The notes below the pieces were generated by a model. It saw nothing but the letters and a program-made list of their open reading frames with translations. It was not told the origin of the DNA and did not search any database. Shown here one piece after another: positions 7,716 through 39,852 of a DNA stretch of 64,000 nt. A program made the position numbers and the translations under genes. Source of the stretch: Roseibium album (GTDB lineage: Bacteria > Pseudomonadota > Alphaproteobacteria > Rhizobiales > Stappiaceae); contig NZ_CXWE01000002.1 of the NCBI RefSeq assembly GCF_001404515.1, positions 434,001 to 498,000 of the forward strand. The letters are read 5' to 3'. Numbering within the stretch: the first letter of the stretch is position 1; the number at the start of each line of letters is the position of its first letter.

Positions 7716-8219
7716 ATGCTAAAACTCGCGGACGTGCTGGAGCGCGTCAATTCTCTCATAGGCAATACGCTGTGCTGGGCAGCGCTTGCCATGATGCTCC
7801 TGCAATTCGTGATCGTGCTCCTGCGATATGTCTTTGGCTACAGCTACATTTTTCTGGATGAGGGTGTCCTTTACTTCCACGCAGCCCTCTTCATGCTCGG
7901 CGCAGGTTACACATTCCTCGTCAATGCCCATGTCAGGGTAGATATCTTCTACGCCAAATGCACCGAACGGACCCAGGCATGGATCGACCTGTTCGGTCAC
8001 CTTTTTCTGCTCACGCCCGCACTCATCGTGCTGATCTGGTTTTCCTGGCCCTATGTGCGCGGCAGTTGGGCGATCCTGGAAGGTCCGATATCCGTCGGCG
8101 GCATTCCGGCCTCCTATCTGCTCAAATCCCTCATTCCGGCTTACTGCGTGCTTTTGCTCATCCAGGGCGTTGCGGCCTTCATCCGTGACATTGCGAAGCT
8201 GAGAGGTGCCCGTGCATGA
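7716..8219 (+). CDS. TRAP transporter small permease DctQ
   Basis: Small integral-membrane subunit with four predicted membrane helices, 167 residues from ATG 7716. A purine-rich AGGGGCAGGA site precedes this start; the longer frame from 7617 runs through the repeat region and is not credible. A DctQ-type FLDEGVLYFHAALFMLGAGYTF segment is split by the second helix. It overlaps dctM by 4 nt. Together with dctM and the dctP gene it would import a carboxylate with sodium. Confidence 0.88.
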   Translation: MLKLADVLERVNSLIGNTLCWAALAMMLLQFVIVLLRYVFGYSYIFLDEGVLYFHAALFMLGAGYTFLVNAHVRVDIFYAKCTERTQAWIDLFGHLFLLTPALIVLIWFSWPYVRGSWAILEGPISVGGIPASYLLKSLIPAYCVLLLIQGVAAFIRDIAKLRGARA

Positions 8220-9766
8220 GCCTGCCACTCGACCTCATCATGTTCGGAGCGCTGATCGCCTTCATTCTGCTCGGTTATCCGGTGGCTTTCACGATAGCCG
8301 GAGTTGCCACGGGATTTGCGCTTCTCGGCTGGATGCTCGGAGACTTCAATATCCAACTCATGGGAGCGATGGGCCAAAGGTTCTTTGGCGTCCTCGTCAA
8401 TCCCGTTCTGACTGCAATTCCGCTTTTCGTTCTGATGGGAGTCATTCTGGAAAAGAGCCGGATTGCCGAAGAACTGCTGGAGACCATGGGACGCCTTTTC
8501 GGGCGGATGAACGGCGGTCTCGGCGTCTCCGTCATACTCGTCGGAGCACTGCTTGCGGCCTCTACCGGCATTGTCGGCGCAACCGTCGTTGCCATGGGGC
8601 TTATTGCCCTGCCGACCATGCTGCGGAATGGCTATGATCCGAAACTCGCCTCCGGAATGGTCTGCACCGCCGGAACGCTCGGCCAGATCATCCCGCCATC
8701 GACCCTCTTGATTATCCTTGCCGACGTTATGTCGAATGCCTTCCAGCAGGCGCAATACGCACAAGGAAAATTCACGATAGAGACCATATCCGTGGGTCAG
8801 ACCTTTGCCGCCGCCATGGTCCCCGGCCTGCTGCTGGTTCTCGTCTATTGCGTCTATGTCCTGGCCCGTGCCAGGCTCTTTCCGGGTGATGCCCCGGCCA
8901 TGAACGAAAATGTCGACCGGCCCTCCGGCAAGGAAATCGCCGCCGCCATTGTTCCACCAATTCTACTGATCATCGCTGTTCTGGGTTCTATTCTCGGCGG
9001 CATCGCCTCTCCGAACGAAGCCGCATCCGTCGGTGCAGTCGGCGCAATTCTTCTTGCCGGGCGCCGGCTTGGCGTTTCCACGAAGCTGATTGTACTGGCA
9101 ACGCTCGCTTTGCTCGTCCTTGCAGTTGTCGCAACACTTATGCCGGTCCGTCTGCAACGATCCGACGTCACACCCGTTGGATATCTGCTTGCGGCAGTCT
9201 ATGCGGGCCTTGCCATCTTCGCCGTTGGCGTTGTGGTCCGCATCCTGCTGGCAGCATTTGCCGACGGTCTCTTGAAGGCCTCCCTCCTGTCGACCCTCAC
9301 GGTCACATCAATGATTTTCGCCACCATCCTCATGGCGAGTTTCTTTTCGCTCGTCTTTGTCGGCCTTGGCGGCGAAGACAGGGTGCATGCCATCCTGAAC
9401 GAAATGCCTGGCGGAGCAACCGGTGCGTTGATCTTTGCAATGCTGTTTGTCTTCGTCCTCGGCTTCTTCCTCGACTTCGTCGAAATCTCGGTAATCCTCC
9501 TGCCGGTGCTAATCCCGCCACTCATCCTGATGGGGATTGACCCGATCTGGCTGACTGTCCTGATCGCGATCAATCTCCAGACATCGTTCCTGACGCCACC
9601 GTTCGGCTTTTCGCTGTTCTACCTGCGCGGCGCGGCGCCCAAGGAAATCACCACAGGCCAGATCTATCGCGGAGTGGTGCCCTTCATAGGGCTTCAGATC
9701 ATCGCAGTGGCCATCTTGTGGCTGTTCCCGATCCTCGCAACCTGGTTGCCGCGTTCGCTTTACTGA
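8216..9766 (+). CDS. TRAP transporter large permease DctM
   Basis: Large membrane subunit of the TRAP importer, 516 residues with about a dozen hydrophobic segments. DctM features include the LLGYPVAFTIAG start, STGIVGATVVAMGLIALP, IIPPSTLLIILAD and the late NLQTSFLTPPFGFSLFYLRG. It is longer than the usual 425-440 residues because of an insert between about residues 225 and 345, as in the DctM branch paired with TakP-like receptors. The stop overlaps the converging nagZ-like gene by 7 bp. Confidence 0.92.
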   Translation: MSLPLDLIMFGALIAFILLGYPVAFTIAGVATGFALLGWMLGDFNIQLMGAMGQRFFGVLVNPVLTAIPLFVLMGVILEKSRIAEELLETMGRLFGRMNGGLGVSVILVGALLAASTGIVGATVVAMGLIALPTMLRNGYDPKLASGMVCTAGTLGQIIPPSTLLIILADVMSNAFQQAQYAQGKFTIETISVGQTFAAAMVPGLLLVLVYCVYVLARARLFPGDAPAMNENVDRPSGKEIAAAIVPPILLIIAVLGSILGGIASPNEAASVGAVGAILLAGRRLGVSTKLIVLATLALLVLAVVATLMPVRLQRSDVTPVGYLLAAVYAGLAIFAVGVVVRILLAAFADGLLKASLLSTLTVTSMIFATILMASFFSLVFVGLGGEDRVHAILNEMPGGATGALIFAMLFVFVLGFFLDFVEISVILLPVLIPPLILMGIDPIWLTVLIAINLQTSFLTPPFGFSLFYLRGAAPKEITTGQIYRGVVPFIGLQIIAVAILWLFPILATWLPRSLY

Positions 9767-32577: not shown

Positions 32578-34008
<1,431 letters not shown>

Positions 34009-34017
34009 TCATATCCA

Positions 34018-34078
34018 CCTGGCGGCAAACGTGTCGCAGAGTTTCGTCAGAAACGAACTCCTGCTGGCATCCGCCAGG
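34018..34078 (-). ncRNA. Y-RNA-like unit 6, short form without tRNA-like body
   Basis: On the minus strand CCTGGCGG (34078-34071) and CCGCCAGG (34025-34018) form a perfect 8-bp closing stem. As in the other units, ATGCC follows the 5' strand and a TTTG precedes the 3' strand. The 61-nt interior holds only a hairpin (GAGTT-CGT with ACG-AAACTC) and no T-loop or D-arm. It ends 18 nt before the rtcB start, so it is also part of the rtcB leader. It resembles a minimal Rsr-binding Y RNA. Confidence 0.6.
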
Positions 34079-34083
34079 CTGCG

Positions 34084-34221
34084 CGGGGCAAGGTTTGGCA
34101 AGAGTGTCTTTCCGCCACCGGATTGCTCCGGGCCAGACTTGAACTGGCACGGGAAGCGCTGCGCGCCTCCCCTCCCGGCCACGCCGGGAGGCGTCTGCCT
34201 GTAGTCCTGCCGGCATCCCCG
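34084..34221 (-). ncRNA. Y-RNA-like unit 5 with permuted tRNA-like body
   Basis: Closing stem CGGGG (34221-34217) with CCCCG (34088-34084), flanked by the shared ATGCC and ACCTTG. Inside, in order: a GC hairpin (CTCCCGGC, loop GTG, GCCGGGAG), a perfect T-arm (GCCAG, loop TTCAAGT, CTGGC), an acceptor-like stem capped by a GNRA tetraloop (CCGGA, GCAA, TCCGG), and a D-arm-like stem (TGGC with GCCA). T-arm before D-arm is the permuted order known for bacterial YrlA RNAs. It lies between the hypothetical gene and unit 6. Confidence 0.72.
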
Positions 34222-34260
34222 AATTCGCGGCAGAGCCACGTGTTGAATTCCGTTTCAGCC

Positions 34261-34746
34261 TCAATGCACCAGTCTTGGTGACAAGTGCGGAAGAGAAGAG
34301 CGAATTATTCGCTTCGTAGTACGCGAACCGTATGGTCCGCCGGAACGCAACTCCACGATGGGATCATGAGGCCTGACATCTGCAAACGTTTCAGCCGAAT
34401 ACTCTCTTCCCAAGTCGGTTTTCACTCGAGAGGTGCACAAGATCTTCTCATTCGAAACGCTCTGAATATCGATTGCCGCATATCGGATCCAGGCCTCGGA
34501 GATCTTCCGAGAATAGGAGATCCTGAGGAGCACGTCGCCGTAGAATTCTGTGAGCTCAAAAAAAATTTTATCCGATTTTTCCAGCTCTCGTGTCACGAGA
34601 TCTAGACAGAGTTTCCGTCTCTTGCCCTGTTGCAAATGGGTCTGGATCTTTCCCAACGCCCAATAACCATCGAGATCATTGTTTCGACTTGTGAAGGTTT
34701 CCAGAAGATCCCGGCAAACTCCCCTCAATTCTGCTCGGCGTGCCAT
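34261..34746 (-). CDS. Unrecognised protein embedded in the rsr-rtcB RNA array
   Basis: 161-residue basic protein beginning MARRAELRGVCRDLLETFTS, with a helical first half (DLVTRELEKSDKIFFELTEF) and a beta-rich, arginine-containing second half (VKTDLGREYSAETFADV, GSRTTKRIIRS). ATG 34746 has AAGGA 9 nt upstream and follows unit 4 directly, so it is translated from the same operon. I do not recognise the family. The basic character and location suggest an RNA-binding or RNA-repair accessory protein. GC content is lower than that of rtcB, hinting at a different history. Confidence 0.65.
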   Translation of the reverse strand: MARRAELRGVCRDLLETFTSRNNDLDGYWALGKIQTHLQQGKRRKLCLDLVTRELEKSDKIFFELTEFYGDVLLRISYSRKISEAWIRYAAIDIQSVSNEKILCTSRVKTDLGREYSAETFADVRPHDPIVELRSGGPYGSRTTKRIIRSSLPHLSPRLVH

Positions 34747-34782
34747 GTGTTTTTGTCCTTCTTTGTTAAGTCATGGACCCCG

Positions 34783-34923
34783 TCAGGGCGACGAGAAGAA
34801 TGCGAACCACGTTTGTATCTCGCAATGCGAGACCTGCTAAACCACTCAGCTACGTGCCTGTTTCCCGGTCACGGCGGGAGTCGAACCCGCGTACGATGGA
34901 GGCTCGCACAGCATCCGCCCTGA
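34783..34923 (-). ncRNA. Y-RNA-like unit 4 with permuted tRNA-like body
   Basis: Closing stem TCAGGGCG (34923-34916) with CGCCCTGA (34790-34783), perfect over 8 bp. The interior contains a canonical T-arm (GCGGG, loop TTCGACT, CCCGC), then an acceptor-like stem (CGTGACC with GGCACG, one bulged A) closed by a short loop, then a D-arm (GCT, loop GAGTGGTTT, AGC). A long hairpin (TCTCGCA with TGCGAGA) lies before the 3' strand. The 5' strand is followed by GATGC rather than ATGCC, and the 3' strand is preceded by CTCGT. It is 36 nt upstream of the hypothetical gene start. Confidence 0.75.
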
Positions 34924-35025
34924 TCGGATTTTCTGATGCGGCTTCCTGCTCTTGGCCGTCGCCGCAACCTATCGTTTGCTCTCTGTTTCAGTGGTGATCC
35001 GAATTCGGACCAGTCGGGAAGTCGT

Positions 35026-35170
35026 CCGGTCAGGGCGACAAGGTGAGTGCAAAACGTTCCTGCTCTATCCGTTGAGCTACGCTGCATCAGATGGTTGCAG
35101 CGGCGGGATTCGAACCCGCAACCTGGCGATTCATAGTCGATGTAGTTCTGCAGGCATTCGCCCTGACCGG
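35026..35170 (-). ncRNA. Y-RNA-like unit 3, best preserved permuted tRNA with encoded ACCA
   Basis: A perfect 13-bp closing stem joins CCGGTCAGGGCGA (35170-35158) and TCGCCCTGACCGG (35038-35026). Inside, the 3' half of a tRNA comes first: T-arm GCGGG, TTCGAAT, CCCGC, then acceptor strand CGCTGCA and the tail ACCA. After only TCTGA the 5' half follows: acceptor strand TGCAGCG, TA, and D-arm GCTC, AACGGATA, GAGC. The two acceptor strands match over all 7 bp. The closing stem stands where the anticodon arm would be. This is the tRNA-mimic layout of bacterial YrlA RNAs. Confidence 0.85.
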
Positions 35171-35178
35171 TTGAAAAT

Positions 35179-35310
35179 TGCGGCGGCAAGTTGGTGATGA
35201 AATTAGCTCCGTTGCCTTTCCTCGTTAGACGACATCGCGACTTCGCGAAGGCGTGGCTCGACCCACGCATTTCCGGAGGTAACAGTGTAATTCCATCGGC
35301 ATCCGCCTCA
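35179..35310 (-). ncRNA. Y-RNA-like unit 2, diverged tRNA-like body
   Basis: TGAGGCGG (35310-35303) pairs with CCGCCGCA (35186-35179) over 8 positions with one mismatch. The 5' strand is followed by ATGCC and the 3' strand preceded by AACTTG, as in units 1, 3 and 5. A T-arm-like hairpin (GCGTG, loop GGTCGAG, CCACGC) is followed by a short acceptor-like stem TCGCG, AAGT, CGCGA; the D-arm region is degenerate. It is separated from unit 3 by only 8 nt, so processing must separate the two RNAs. Confidence 0.65.
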
Positions 35311-35330
35311 GTCAAAAAATTTCTGGAAAA

Positions 35331-35563
35331 ACCAGGCGACAAAGGTGAAGAAACCCGGGAGTCCCGCTCGAGCCTGAGAGCGCATGCTTGATCAACCTGC
35401 GCTCAAGAGAGCGCAGACAAGTTGATCGGCTTTTAAAGACCGATCAGCTTATGGACATTCCATCGGTTCCGATTGAGTGTCCGCTGATCCGGAGGGGAGT
35501 CGAACCCGCTCGGACTTTGTTCCCATTGTTGGAGCAATGTAGTTCCCTCGGCATTCGCCTGGT
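35331..35563 (-). ncRNA. Y-RNA-like unit 1, long form
   Basis: ACCAGGCGA (35563-35555) and TCGCCTGGT (35339-35331) form a perfect 9-bp closing stem. ATGCC follows the 5' strand and ACCTTTG precedes the 3' strand. The 233-nt interior has a T-arm-like element around GGGTTCGACTCCC and two further strong hairpins: AAGCTGATCGG with CCGATCAACTT, and GATCAAC-CTGCGCTC with GAGCGCAG-GTTGATC. The 3' strand runs into TTTTTCC, which could act as a release site. First unit after rsr, longer than the others. Confidence 0.65.
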
Positions 35564-35571
35564 CTTCCGGC

Positions 35572-35602
35572 GACCATGGCAGGCAGTGTGCCCGCCATGG
35601 TC
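35572..35602 (-). terminator. Long hairpin between rsr and the Y-RNA array
   Basis: GACCATGGC (35572-35580) pairs with GCCATGGTC (35594-35602). After one mismatch the stem continues as GGCA with TGCC around loop GTG, giving 13 paired positions. It begins 7 nt after the rsr stop. Without a T-run it is likely a processing or stability element that separates rsr mRNA from the structured RNAs. Confidence 0.65.
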
Positions 35603-35609
35603 CAAATCG

Positions 35610-37184
35610 TCAGGTCAGATCGATCGCTTCGATCTCGCCGACCCATTGGTCTACGTTCATCGTGCCTTTGGCAAAGGCCGCGATCTGGTCGAACACCGCA
35701 TCGGAGAAACCTCCGATGTTGAGGATATCCGGCCGCGACCTGGCCTGGCTCGTGCCGTAGGGCGCGATATCGATGCACACCAGCTTGGCATCCGGGTTGC
35801 GCCGTTTCAGCGTCTCCCATTCGCGCATCACACCGGTCCCGCGACCCTGCTGGACGCCTGCCCAGGACTGGTTGTCCGAGACCAGGATCACCAGGTCCGG
35901 TGCCCGGCGTTTTTCGTTCAGCCACGCCAGCGGTGCCGCGCAGTTCGTCCCGCCACCCCACTGCTCCGTGAGCTTTTGGGCGTTGGTCAGAATCGTGTCT
36001 CGCGCCACCAGCTTCACCGGCCGGACGTTGACCTCGAACGGCAGGACCGTGGCCCCGCGGTTACGCCGCAAGACGGCTGCGGACACCAGGGCAGCAACAT
36101 CGACGCAGCGCGTTACCGTCGTCGCCCCTTTCCTGTATCCGGTCACCGGGGAGACCATGGAGCCGGAGACGTCCGGGCACACAACAACCTGTCCCTTGAA
36201 GGCCGGCACGTTGGCGACCGAGATCTCCATGGCTTCATGCATCGCCTCGCGGATTTCGGACGGCATGTCCTCTGACAGCGCCTGAAAACCCGTGAGCAGC
36301 TGATACGGGAAGGCACGTGCCTTCCTGATCCGCTTCGGATCCTTCAGGATATCCGCAACCATGCGAACCGCCGGTGCCTTTTCGAACCGTTTGCCTTCGA
36401 AAACGCCGTGGCGCAGGAAGGTGTTCAAGTTCATGCGCACCATGTTCCAGCTCCCGCGTTCCGCCAACATCGTCCAGTCTTCCCTGGCGAGCTGCAGATG
36501 CGTCAGCATCTGGAAGGGAACGTCTGGCACTTCGCGACCGTTCGGATTCTCCAGGAAGGCCACATAATCGCGGACCTGCGCCGGGAGCTTCTCGACATCG
36601 CACGGCTTGCCGATCAACCAGGCGAACAGAGCAGCACGCTCGGCATCACGCGGTTTCGGGTGCACCATCTTGATGACGTCGGCAAGCGATGGATCATTGC
36701 CGATATTTGCCTGCAGCAACTGGTAGTCCGTTGCCGCATTCAACCATCCGCGCACCAGTGCTTTCGGCCTGGTGCCGAGCGACTTGCGGCCGGTCTGCCC
36801 GGAACGCAGGATCTGCACGAAATTACGCAGCATCCTGCCATCGGTCACGACAAACGGAAATGCCTTGGCCAGCAGAACCGGATCACGGGATGCCAGTACC
36901 GCCAGCAACAGCGCCGGCAGATCTTTCATCTTGCCTTTCTGGCGGGCATAGACGGCTGTCTTAGCCAGGAAGGCATCCGGAACCGCCGCCGCCGTTTCCA
37001 GAACGGCCTTCAGTTCAAGATCGGCGGACTGGTAGAACGTGTCGCCAATGGAACCCGTCGCGGCCAGCTGAGCCAGCTTGTGACGGTCTTCGTAGGTGTA
37101 GGCTTTTCCACCCGCCAGATTCCGGGCACCGGCCTTGCCGGAAGTGCGTCCACGCTGTGATGCAAACAGAGATTTGTTCGCCAT
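35610..37184 (-). CDS. rsr: Rsr, bacterial Ro60 orthologue (TROVE and vWA domains)
   Basis: Ring-shaped RNA-binding protein that binds Y RNAs and structured or damaged RNA ends and, with nucleases, assists RNA quality control. ATG 37184 (behind GAGGAG) gives 524 residues; a longer frame has no ribosome site. Residues about 30-330 are the helical-repeat TROVE ring (GLAR-like LKAVLETAAAVPDAF, YARQKGKMKDLPALLLAVLA). The C-terminal vWA domain carries the metal-site DVSGSM (about 338-343) and SDNQSW. It heads the operon that continues with the Y-RNA units and rtcB, divergent from rtcR. Confidence 0.92.
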   Translation of the reverse strand: MANKSLFASQRGRTSGKAGARNLAGGKAYTYEDRHKLAQLAATGSIGDTFYQSADLELKAVLETAAAVPDAFLAKTAVYARQKGKMKDLPALLLAVLASRDPVLLAKAFPFVVTDGRMLRNFVQILRSGQTGRKSLGTRPKALVRGWLNAATDYQLLQANIGNDPSLADVIKMVHPKPRDAERAALFAWLIGKPCDVEKLPAQVRDYVAFLENPNGREVPDVPFQMLTHLQLAREDWTMLAERGSWNMVRMNLNTFLRHGVFEGKRFEKAPAVRMVADILKDPKRIRKARAFPYQLLTGFQALSEDMPSEIREAMHEAMEISVANVPAFKGQVVVCPDVSGSMVSPVTGYRKGATTVTRCVDVAALVSAAVLRRNRGATVLPFEVNVRPVKLVARDTILTNAQKLTEQWGGGTNCAAPLAWLNEKRRAPDLVILVSDNQSWAGVQQGRGTGVMREWETLKRRNPDAKLVCIDIAPYGTSQARSRPDILNIGGFSDAVFDQIAAFAKGTMNVDQWVGEIEAIDLT

Positions 37185-37326
37185 TGTCTCGCTCCTCAAA
37201 TCCTTGCCCTGGAAGGCGTTGGTGTTCGTGTCTGTGTTGAGAAGGAGATTGCCGTTTCGAAGCGCAGAGCAAAACAAAAATGTGAAATCGCAATAACTAT
37301 TTGTTTTTTATGAGTTTTTCCGGATA

Positions 37327-37385
37327 TTGACATTTGTGGCACGAGAATATCTTATACGAAAAGATACTCTTTTATAAAAAGGTAT
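37327..37385 (+). promoter_or_regulatory. rtcR promoter and overlapping palindromes
   Basis: TTGACA (37327-37332) and CTTATA (37351-37356), 18 bp apart, form a sigma70-like promoter reading toward rtcR. Overlapping it are the inverted repeat TATCTT...AAGATA (37348-37366) and an imperfect 22-bp palindrome, ATACTCTTTTA with TAAAAAGGTAT (37364-37385). These are candidate binding sites for RtcR. A perfect TGGCACG at 37337 resembles a sigma54 -24 element but its -12 (TATC) is poor. I find no sigma54 site on the minus strand ahead of rsr. Confidence 0.5.
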
Positions 37386-37391
37386 AGCTCG

Positions 37392-38972
37392 TTGAAAAAG
37401 AACGTTGTCATCGGCTTCCTCGGCATCCAGCTGGACGCCGGCAAAAAGCGTCGATGGCGCCCGTCGATCGCCGTCACCCAGCATGGCAGCTTTCCGGTTC
37501 ACCGTATTGAACTCTTGTACGACAGGGCATTTCATCGCCTTGCAAGCAACGTCAAGAAAGACATCGAGGATGCAAGTCCGGCAACAGAGGTTCTGTTGCA
37601 GCAGGTTGACCTGCGCGATCCCTGGGACTTTCAGGAGGTTTACGGCGCTCTGTTTGACTTCGCGCGTGACTACGGCTTCGACGAGGATCGCGAGGACTAC
37701 TTCGTCCATTTGACGACAGGAACGCACGTTGCCCAGATCTGCTGGTTTTTGTTGACGGAGTCCCGACATGTGCCAGCCAAGCTGGTGCAGACATCGCCGC
37801 CACGCGGTGACGATGGTGAAGTAACCGGCCGCTACAACATCGTAGATCTCGACCTTTCCCGTTATGACGCCTTGCAGCAACGATTTGATCTGATCGCGGA
37901 AGAATACAATGCACTCCTGAAAGCAGGCATTGAAACCCGGAACACGGCATTCAACAGCCTGATCGAACGGATAGAGCTTGTCGCCACAAACTCGGACGCG
38001 CCGCTGCTTCTGCTCGGCGATACGGGAACAGGCAAGAGCGAGCTGGCGGAACGAATCTACGAGCTGAAATTGCAGCGGCGCCGGGTCAAGGGCCGGCTTG
38101 TTCATGTGAATTGCGCCACGCTGAAGGGCGAGCGCGCGATGTCGAGCCTGTTCGGCCATCGCCGGGGGACCATGGGAACCGGCAGTCCGGACCGGCGCGG
38201 CTTGTTGCGTGAGGCTGATGGCGGTGTGCTCTTCCTGGATGAGATCAACGAACTTGGCCTCGATGAACAGGCAATGATCCTTCACGCGGTCGAAACCGGC
38301 CGGTTTCTGGCTGTTGGCTCCGATCACGAGATCACCAGCCGCTTTCAACTGATTGCGGGAACCAACCGCAACCTCGGCCAGCTCGTCTCGGAGGGAAAGT
38401 TCCGACCGGATCTCTATGCCAGGCTGAACCTCTGGACATTCCGGTTGCCCTCTCTCACGGAACGGCGGGAAGACATCGAACCCAACATAGAATTCGAACT
38501 CAACCGCGCTGAAAAACTGCTCGGCAACAGGGTGGGCTTCAATGTCGATGCAAGAGCGCGATATCTTGACTTTGCCGTGTCCCCGGCAACGCCCTGGCCG
38601 GGCAATTTTCGCGACCTCGGCGCTTCTGTCCAGAGATTGTGCACCCTGGCACCGCGAGGCCGTATCACGCTTACGCTCGTTGAACAGGAAATCGACGCAC
38701 TGGAAAGCCAGTGGACGAGTGCCTTGGCCAACCCGGATGATACGCTCCTGCGGGATCTCCTCGGCGACAGAACAGATGAAATCGACGTCTTCGACAGGGT
38801 TCAGCTCGCCTATGTCATTCGCATGTGCCGGAAGAGCCCGTCCTTGAGCGCAACCGGACGGGTCCTGTTCGCGGCATCCCGCGCCTCGAAGACAAGCCGC
38901 AACGATGCTGATCGCCTCAAGAAGTACCTGGACCGGTTTGACCTGAACTGGTCGGCTATCACGGCGGAATGA
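37392..38972 (+). CDS. rtcR: RtcR, CARF-AAA+ transcription regulator of the RNA-repair operon
   Basis: 526-residue activator. Residues 1-185 are the CARF domain (HLTTGTHVAQICWFLL, 106-121), which senses oligonucleotide or RNA ends with cyclic phosphate. Residues about 190-430 are the AAA+ domain with Walker A GDTGTGKS (209-216) and Walker B VLFLDEINE (279-287). A C-terminal helix-turn-helix follows. The sigma54-contact loop, normally GAFTGA, reads GTMGTG (259-264). The start is TTG 37392 with a weak ribosome site, chosen because it aligns with the RtcR N-terminus. Divergent from rsr. Confidence 0.92.
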   Translation: MKKNVVIGFLGIQLDAGKKRRWRPSIAVTQHGSFPVHRIELLYDRAFHRLASNVKKDIEDASPATEVLLQQVDLRDPWDFQEVYGALFDFARDYGFDEDREDYFVHLTTGTHVAQICWFLLTESRHVPAKLVQTSPPRGDDGEVTGRYNIVDLDLSRYDALQQRFDLIAEEYNALLKAGIETRNTAFNSLIERIELVATNSDAPLLLLGDTGTGKSELAERIYELKLQRRRVKGRLVHVNCATLKGERAMSSLFGHRRGTMGTGSPDRRGLLREADGGVLFLDEINELGLDEQAMILHAVETGRFLAVGSDHEITSRFQLIAGTNRNLGQLVSEGKFRPDLYARLNLWTFRLPSLTERREDIEPNIEFELNRAEKLLGNRVGFNVDARARYLDFAVSPATPWPGNFRDLGASVQRLCTLAPRGRITLTLVEQEIDALESQWTSALANPDDTLLRDLLGDRTDEIDVFDRVQLAYVIRMCRKSPSLSATGRVLFAASRASKTSRNDADRLKKYLDRFDLNWSAITAE

Positions 38973-38990
38973 CAGCCGTGATAGCCGACC
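38950..38990 (+). terminator. 16-bp perfect hairpin over the rtcR stop codon
   Basis: GGTCGGCTATCACGGC (38950-38965) pairs perfectly with GCCGTGATAGCCGACC (38975-38990). The rtcR TGA stop (38970-38972) is in the 9-nt loop, so the last codons of rtcR form one arm. No T-run follows. It probably ends or protects the rtcR transcript. Confidence 0.7.
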
Positions 38991-39140
38991 GGCTCACGCA
39001 CAGATGGAGTTTCCGTGATCTCGATGCATCCGAACTTGAATAAAACGTCAGAACTTCACGCATTGAGTTGAATGCACGTTATCGAATGCCTTCCCAAATA
39101 AAGGGCGCAACAAGATTTGTTATCTGGAAGGCTAATGGAC

Positions 39141-39653: not shown

Positions 39654-39701
39654 TCCTCAACAACAGCCATGCGGGCGAACCACGCCCACATCCAAAAAAA
39701 T

Positions 39702-39729
39702 CGCGCCACATTGTGGCGCGTTTTTTTTT
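39702..39729 (+). terminator. Strong, bidirectional-looking intrinsic terminator
   Basis: CGCGCCACA (39702-39710) pairs with TGTGGCGCG (39712-39720), and nine T residues follow. A run of seven A residues just before the stem would also allow it to work on the minus strand. It ends the four-helix membrane protein transcript. Confidence 0.85.
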
Positions 39730-39852
39730 GCATGACGTGACTGCGCCAACACGTGTTGAAATGGGCCTTTAAAAAATGAAACAAGATGGTGGTACTTTTG
39801 ACTTGCATCTCAGCTGGGCTTCTTTTTGATAAGTCCAAACGGAGGCTGGCAT

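Follow-up and report, generated by a model that had tools for sequence, protein, structure and literature searches.

Predicted Y-RNA genes with one closing stem and different, partly tRNA-like heads between rsr and rtcB in Roseibium album

In the marine bacterium Roseibium album, what lies between rsr, the gene for a Ro60-like protein (Rsr), and rtcB, the gene for an RNA ligase (RtcB), and how does it bear on the wider question of the function of bacterial Y RNAs and the reason for their mimicry of tRNA? We analysed a stretch of 64,000 nucleotides from this species (NCBI RefSeq assembly GCF_001404515.1, contig NZ_CXWE01000002.1, positions 434,001–498,000; hereafter the window), in which an array of six minus-strand units at 34017–35568 fills the rsr–rtcB gap. 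We consider it fairly probable that these are six Y-RNA genes with a common closing stem, the predicted Rsr-binding site, and with different heads, three of them tRNA-like, and that they act by the mechanism proposed below. Y RNAs beside rsr and rtcB, with more than one per locus (yrlBA), are already known. In the available descriptions of the Salmonella operon rsr-yrlBA-rtcBA (YrlA, RF02553; YrlB, RF02565), as in the window, rsr, Y RNAs and rtcB stand under a divergent rtcR. The Salmonella operon has two Y RNAs, whereas the window has six units together with an RtcR lacking the GAFTGA motif, and rtcA is not among the genes named at the window locus.

Six stem-closed units on a common base

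The units were detected by a relaxed rule that required a stem of at least 5 bp, with ATGC or ATGT following its 5′ strand and T[TAC]G preceding its 3′ strand. This rule returned six units in the rsr–rtcB gap, compared with a mean of 0.154 and a maximum of 2 in 500 dinucleotide shuffles, which excludes chance hairpins and confirms the six stem-closed minus-strand segments that a first-pass annotation, made from the sequence alone, had placed between the two genes. The strict ATGC/TTG rule returned five units (shuffle mean 0.108, maximum 2; 500 shuffles), and when a stem of at least 8 bp was also required, a search of both strands of the whole 64 kb found only units 1, 3 and 6. The closing stems of units 1–6 measure 14, 5, 13, 9, 5 and 9 bp when G-U pairs are counted; of the range of 5 to 13 bp first given, the lower end stands and the upper end yields to the 14 bp of unit 1. 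The annotated limits of the array, 34018–35563, were nearly right and needed correction to those given above. The 5′ strand is followed by ATGCC in five units, as had been noted, and by ATGCT in unit 4, where the annotation had read GATGC, one base too early, and ATGC in fact follows the strand directly. TTG before the 3′ strand in five units, with unit 4 deviating, was also borne out, the motif in unit 4 being TCG. All six units have the AUGC/U(U/C)G closing stem that forms the base of the Rfam YrlA family, and the closing stem of Salmonella YrlA likewise carries AUGC and UUG.

To place the array among its relatives, we assembled 87 records, made up of the best 80 of 438 confirmed related loci together with six same-genus loci and the window. 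The duplicates L016, L017 and L018 (of L022, L024 and L026) were dropped, leaving 84 records in which the near-duplicate pairs window/L023 and L015/L025 were kept; for nine records without rtcB within 4 kb, up to 2 kb after rsr was taken instead. The 84 records hold 391 units (median 4.5, maximum 8), with at least three units in 78 records and at least six in 23. Several units per array are thus normal for this clade, and the earlier suggestion that six is an exceptional number is not supported. Approximately 11 of the 406 units obtained under the relaxed rule are expected by chance, and 101 of the 406 are shorter than 90 nt. The median gap between Y units is 17 nt, and array content differs among close relatives. 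The distribution of rsr is itself patchy: it is present in 7 of 25 same-genus genomes, and no rsr was detected in 16 genomes of other families of the same order (E 1e-20).

Compensatory changes in the closing stems across relatives had been set beforehand as a test, and they were found in the pooled units and in the unit 1 and unit 5 types taken separately. Among 349 distinct units with the strict motif, closing-stem position 6 is paired in 93.7% within units versus 45.2% after exchanging partners among loci (at most 52.0% in 100 such swaps), and position 7 in 89.7% versus 43.6% (at most 49.3%); both positions lie outside the detector's 5-bp minimum, and the detector favours longer stems, giving a slight bias towards pairing. 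In the unit 1 type, two-sided changes occur in 13 of 34 pairs across six aligned loci. The position beside rsr and the covarying Rsr-type closing stem suggest that all six units may be bacterial Y RNAs in a broad sense. The Y-RNA identity first proposed is supported by this rsr/rtcB/rtcR context and by Rfam YrlA matches of units 3, 4 and 2, all below the cut-off. The shared strand and tight spacing are consistent with the six units being made as one operon transcript.

Heads modelled as tRNA bodies opened at different places

All units lie on the minus strand. On the Rfam YrlA model, unit 3 (35026–35170; fold z-score −4.44) scored 65.9 bits over the full model, 1–114 (E 1.3e-13), unit 4 (34783–34923; z −2.60) 38.6 bits and unit 2 (35182–35307; 126 nt, z −1.88) 30.7 bits, the curated cut-off being 69. 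Unit 5 (34084–34221; z −2.32) yielded no YrlA hit anywhere in the searched stretch, even with E allowed to reach 10, so that the covariance-model check proposed in the annotation succeeded in matching three units and fell short in that none exceeded 69 bits and unit 5 went unmatched. Weak YrlA matches also occur elsewhere in the host genome, at least one of them at tRNA-Asp genes, and at E ≤ 10 matches appeared in 13 of 14 control genomes too, none over the cut-off. Because its 30.7 bits lie near this tRNA noise, the diverged unit 2 is assigned by its base and its orthologues and not by Rfam; 11 of 200 shuffles fold equally well, and the parser found no T loop in it.

Unit 3 follows the YrlA model: beyond its AUGC/UUG closing stem and a second stem come the T arm, the closed acceptor stem and the D arm in that order, and the Y stem occupies the place of the anticodon arm, where the tRNA body would be opened. 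In the predicted fold of unit 4, T arm, acceptor and D arm are followed by an anticodon-arm-like hairpin, and this four-armed head would hence be opened in the variable loop. Unit 5, the window's member of what we call class B, resembles a tRNA-Leu body opened in the D loop. Its head begins with the 3′ half of the D arm (GGCAGACGC), continues through a hairpin at the anticodon position, a long variable arm, the T arm and an acceptor whose strands are closed by GCAA, and finishes with the 5′ half of the D arm (TGGCGGAA). The sequence TGGCGGAA is present in three, and GGYAGACGC in four, of 42 distinct host tRNAs, all of them tRNA-Leu. These modelled arm orders suggest that the three heads are tRNA bodies opened at different places and not one module. 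The annotation had sorted the array into four structural grades, which missed what appears to be the main difference, namely where the tRNA body opens, unit 5 being another permutation. In contrast to YrlA, the predicted opening of unit 4 lies in the variable loop, and unit 5 would have D halves at both ends of its head, so that it is not a YrlA, although it may work like a Y RNA.

Class B was examined in 33 distinct units obtained from the parser and a pattern, after two parser calls (L046 and L058) had been removed by eye. RNAalifold, run with no structure given on 13 of the 19 distinct Leu-like units, recovered the T arm, the acceptor, the closing stem and a second stem, and also the D stem, which spans nearly 90 columns. 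In these 13 aligned units, 19 of 26 pairs changed on both sides and the D stem is invariant. Over all 33 units, the D stem switches in step, with GCGG/CGC in 19 and GCTC/GAGC in seven; GCTT/GAGC occurs in two and GCTC/GAGT in one, and four of the 33 were not parsed cleanly. Rotation at the acceptor loop led ARAGORN to call a tRNA in 21 of 32 class B units, compared with 2 of 32 left unrotated and none of 32 cut at wrong places; two of the 21 positive units rest on a single construct. By construct, the right cut gave 1025 calls in 7644 and the wrong cuts 0 in 2061, the right-cut grid being wider than the wrong-cut grid and an ACCA end having been added to every construct. Unit 5 itself fails as a linear tRNA gene, judged by cloverleaf, anticodon loop and free acceptor end, and is called only once the permutation is undone. 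The loops at the anticodon position measure 3 to 6 nt in all 32 parsed units (one of the 33 was unparsed), with GAAA in five and UUCG in two; these sizes come from minimum-energy segment folds, which favour tight loops, and the loop of L031 can be drawn with 7 nt. The anticodons that ARAGORN assigned to close Roseibium versions of class B disagree (gtg, gcg, agg and acg), as expected if they do not decode.

In local alignment of the rotated units to host tRNAs, unit 3 favoured tRNA-Arg and unit 4 tRNA-Ser, both above 15 shuffles, and units 1, 2, 5 and 6 aligned no better than shuffles. The long Y RNA-like unit 1 (35326–35568; 243 nt, z −6.84), which was identified by rule and alignment and has a T arm, is of a type that is shorter elsewhere among the six aligned loci, with ~100 nt inserted mid-unit in the window and in G023. 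Unit 6 (34017–34079; 63 nt, z −3.63) consists of a stem only in the window; its counterpart in L017 (G019) has a T arm.

Several observations weigh against our interpretation of the array. Folded singly, unit 5 does not form the D stem, and the shuffle-level alignment of this unit fails to tie it to host tRNAs. Unit 3 alone comes near the Rfam YrlA cut-off (65.9 versus 69 bits), and YrlA noise in the host genome reaches 27.7 bits, close to the score of unit 2. The topology of unit 4 occurs only in the window and L023, two near-identical strains. A stem-blind pairing test anchored on the first TTG told little either way, with 66 of 101 pairing over five positions, against a swapped mean of 53 and a maximum of 60. 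Moreover, ARAGORN found no tRNA gene in the window, and the array there thus lacks the tRNA genes that relatives carry.

tRNA genes in related arrays and a proposed mechanism

ARAGORN identified tRNA genes in 42 of the 84 rsr–rtcB gaps, 73 in total and all on the operon strand, not counting an undetermined call (L068) and miscalls of class B units (L016, L021 and L022), which were dropped. They comprise 23 Asn, 16 Gln, 13 Lys and 13 Pro genes and eight others, all eight in L094. CCA is encoded in 71 of the 73. Their density is 0.746 per kb in the gaps compared with 0.010 in the remainder of the same loci, and the median gaps are 8 nt from Y unit to tRNA and 17 nt from tRNA to Y unit. L094, a Hellea sp. 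metagenome bin, holds a row of twelve tRNA genes, together with Y units, between rsr and rtcB (7830–9112).

Array tRNAs of the same type are 85.5 to 90.7% identical between records (range of medians, L094 left aside). In L030, the array Pro, Asn and Gln genes are 68, 73 and 75% identical to the nearest other gene of the same type in the genome. When ten genomes were searched, the array Pro gene found a single match, the array copy, in all ten (E 0.001). The best match was the array copy in 8 of 10 genomes for Gln (other matches at most 82% over 48 bases or more) and in 9 of 10 for both Lys (others at most 82%) and Asn (others at most 81%), and for the other genomes the match listed was one other than the array copy. 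Judged by their sequences, the array tRNAs appear distinct from housekeeping tRNAs where tested. The anticodon loop of the L030 array tRNA-Pro (8430–8507) reads CTTGGAC against TTTGGGA in the housekeeping gene, and that of its array tRNA-Gln (8763–8838) TTTTGAT against TTTTGGT, in both cases with G to A at position 37. Cleavage-resistant spare tRNAs with altered anticodon loops were rejected as a general rule: the L030 Asn loops equal the housekeeping ones, the array Lys(UUU) loops (for example, in L061) equal those of housekeeping Lys(UUU) in the L030 and window genomes, and many other array Gln genes keep TTTTGGT.

In the mechanism that we propose, cleaved tRNAs with cyclic-phosphate ends would activate RtcR, and rsr, the Y RNAs and rtcB would be transcribed as one RNA that is then cut apart. 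Each Y RNA would load the Rsr ring through its closing stem, and its head would dock on proteins that hold tRNA bodies, PNPase being the known partner of YrlA. Different heads would take Rsr and damaged structured RNA to different partners, and RtcB would re-seal what is salvageable. Since both their acceptor end and their anticodon loop are closed off, class B heads such as that of unit 5 would be neither charged nor decoding. In relatives, the separate array tRNAs may replace lost tRNAs, a step that is not part of the window locus because its array has no tRNA gene. Parts of this scheme have counterparts in the literature. According to the passages available, Salmonella RtcR is activated by tRNA fragments with a cyclic phosphate (PMC7790460), and the tRNA-like head of YrlA links Rsr to PNPase (PMC8394870).

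Three rival explanations have to be weighed against this mechanism. The heads could be decoys, that is, induced tRNA mimics that absorb a tRNA-cutting nuclease or tRNA-modifying enzymes, with Rsr merely stabilising them. We consider this rather unlikely, even though tRNA body features are kept in the heads and the accessible parts of two papers lend it precedent, Hughes et al. suggesting a competitive-inhibitor role for YrlA (PMC7790460) and YrlA being modified by DusA and TruB (PMC8394870). Since class B is without an anticodon loop, with no 7-nt loop at that position in any of the 32 predicted folds, decoys for anticodon nucleases fit less well; a nuclease that reads the tRNA body would still fit. 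It seems quite improbable that the units are processing punctuation, in which cut sites for RNase P or another nuclease tune rsr versus rtcB mRNA and Rsr is no partner. The tight packing (the 17-nt median spacing of Y units, and the 17 nt from the end of unit 6 to the rtcB start) would suit such a role, as would the alternation of tRNA genes with units in relatives, but a common covarying YrlA base exceeds what a cutting signal needs and the closed acceptor ends remove the usual RNase P product end.

We regard as very improbable the third possibility, that only unit 3, perhaps with unit 4, is a working Y RNA and the rest are decaying duplicates. The isolated position of unit 3 near the Rfam cut-off and the variable array content of close relatives are what it would lead one to expect; decay, however, would break pairs, and the unit 5 class persists, with compensatory changes, in 13 aligned relatives, and the unit 1 type in six loci. 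Returning to Y RNAs that load Rsr and present different heads, we tentatively, and with slightly less than even confidence, extend this reading to the clade. Its RNA-repair operon may be a tRNA first-aid kit, in which one damage-induced transcript carries the ligase, Rsr-bound tRNA blanks opened at three places and, in half of the lineages, spare working tRNAs of a separate evolutionary line (Lys, Asn, Gln and Pro); the blank opened in the D loop would be a new kind of Y RNA, and RtcR would be free of sigma54.

Known systems offer partial parallels. The Rsr–Y RNA–PNPase complex of D. radiodurans (RYPER), as far as the passages at hand describe it, involves the same Rsr family (2nvo) and a Y RNA head as the proposed tether, whereas in the window one Rsr base carries several tRNA-like heads that would be opened at different places. 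In Anabaena, reserve tRNAs of the trn operon and RtcB are induced together under translation stress through the repressor TrcR (PMC10272220). In that system rtcB stands apart as a gene of its own, also controlled by TrcR, whereas the interval from rsr to rtcB directly holds Y RNAs in the window and tRNAs as well in relatives; the passages available from that paper contain no mention of Y RNA, Rsr or Ro60. Archaeal tRNA clusters with a TROVE gene (20 of 29 clusters; PMC6333295) likewise place a Ro60-like gene beside tRNA genes. The passage available mentions neither Y RNA nor RtcB, and the tRNAs of the window's relatives differ in being few, mostly of four types, and alternating with Y units. 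By analogy, and as far as these excerpts reach, the Anabaena operon and the archaeal clusters may be partial precedents for tRNA replacement. A full-text literature search, with the primary Y-RNA papers outside its reach, returned no mention of Y RNAs opened in the D loop or of tRNA genes in rsr–rtcB arrays.

The clade offers a natural comparison: with the Rsr base held constant, the heads present different faces of the tRNA body, and partners can be identified for one head at a time. Class B heads lack both an anticodon loop and a free acceptor end, and so argue that the recognised part is the tRNA body. Through the tRNA genes of related arrays, the content of the operon, and not its regulator alone, is linked to tRNA loss.

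The regulator and the surrounding genes

The gene rtcR, the divergent regulator of the RNA-repair operon, lies at 37392–38972 on the plus strand, and its product scored 728.6 bits on the NCBIfam model NF038308 (cut-off 650). With this gene and rtcB (32587–33999, minus strand; Pfam RtcB, 4.2e-35), the locus has the composition of an RtcR-controlled RNA-repair operon. The GAFTGA motif is the element by which such regulators contact sigma54. In the window RtcR it is replaced by GTMGTG, and it is intact in only 9 of 85 RtcR sequences. The same nine records carry a −24/−12-like site before rsr that scores at least 13 of 16, a joint occurrence that suggests loss of sigma54 control; L100 has a site scoring 13 at 130 nt, with GAFTGA absent. 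In the window, the best such score in the rtcR–rsr gap (37188–37391) is 9 of 16, short of what would indicate sigma54 control, and a scan of the window for the sigma54 pattern gave chance numbers. RpoN is encoded in the window genome. On sequence grounds, RtcR is likely to be sigma54-independent here.

The rsr gene (35610–37187, minus strand) encodes a Ro60-like protein whose vWA_Ro60 (3e-17) and TROVE (2.5e-06) domains both exceed the Pfam cut-offs, and its alignment profile found D. radiodurans Rsr (2nvo, 2.9e-32) among solved structures. The product has the TROVE and vWA domains with DxSxS that characterise the Rsr/Ro60 family, and DVSGSM, the Rsr form of what we take to be the metal-binding DxSxS motif, is invariant in six aligned sequences. 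It scored 77.5 bits on the NCBIfam Rsr model, so far below the cut-off of 900 that this Rsr represents a divergent subfamily. The near-duplicate L023 is Labrenzia sp. DG1229 of the Roseibium/Labrenzia group, with an rsr 99% identical to that of the window.

Between units 4 and 5 lies an open reading frame of 161 codons (34261–34746, minus strand), passed over in the annotation of the array, with only two remote relatives (36% and 33% identical), and Pfam and NCBIfam scans of it gave nothing over the cut-off. Its absence from the near-identical L023 and the other six same-genus loci rules it out as a part of the system. A hairpin of 14 bp that lacks a T run lies on the minus strand at 35572–35602, immediately 3′ of the stop codon of rsr; a comparable hairpin with altered sequence was found in 11 of 12 related loci folded, and it is perhaps a 3′ end or pausing signal of the rsr mRNA. 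Long perfect or near-perfect inverted repeats with weak Rfam matches lie at the end of rtcR (38944–38996) and beyond it (39692–39801), and the latter, flanked by A and T runs, resembles a two-way terminator.

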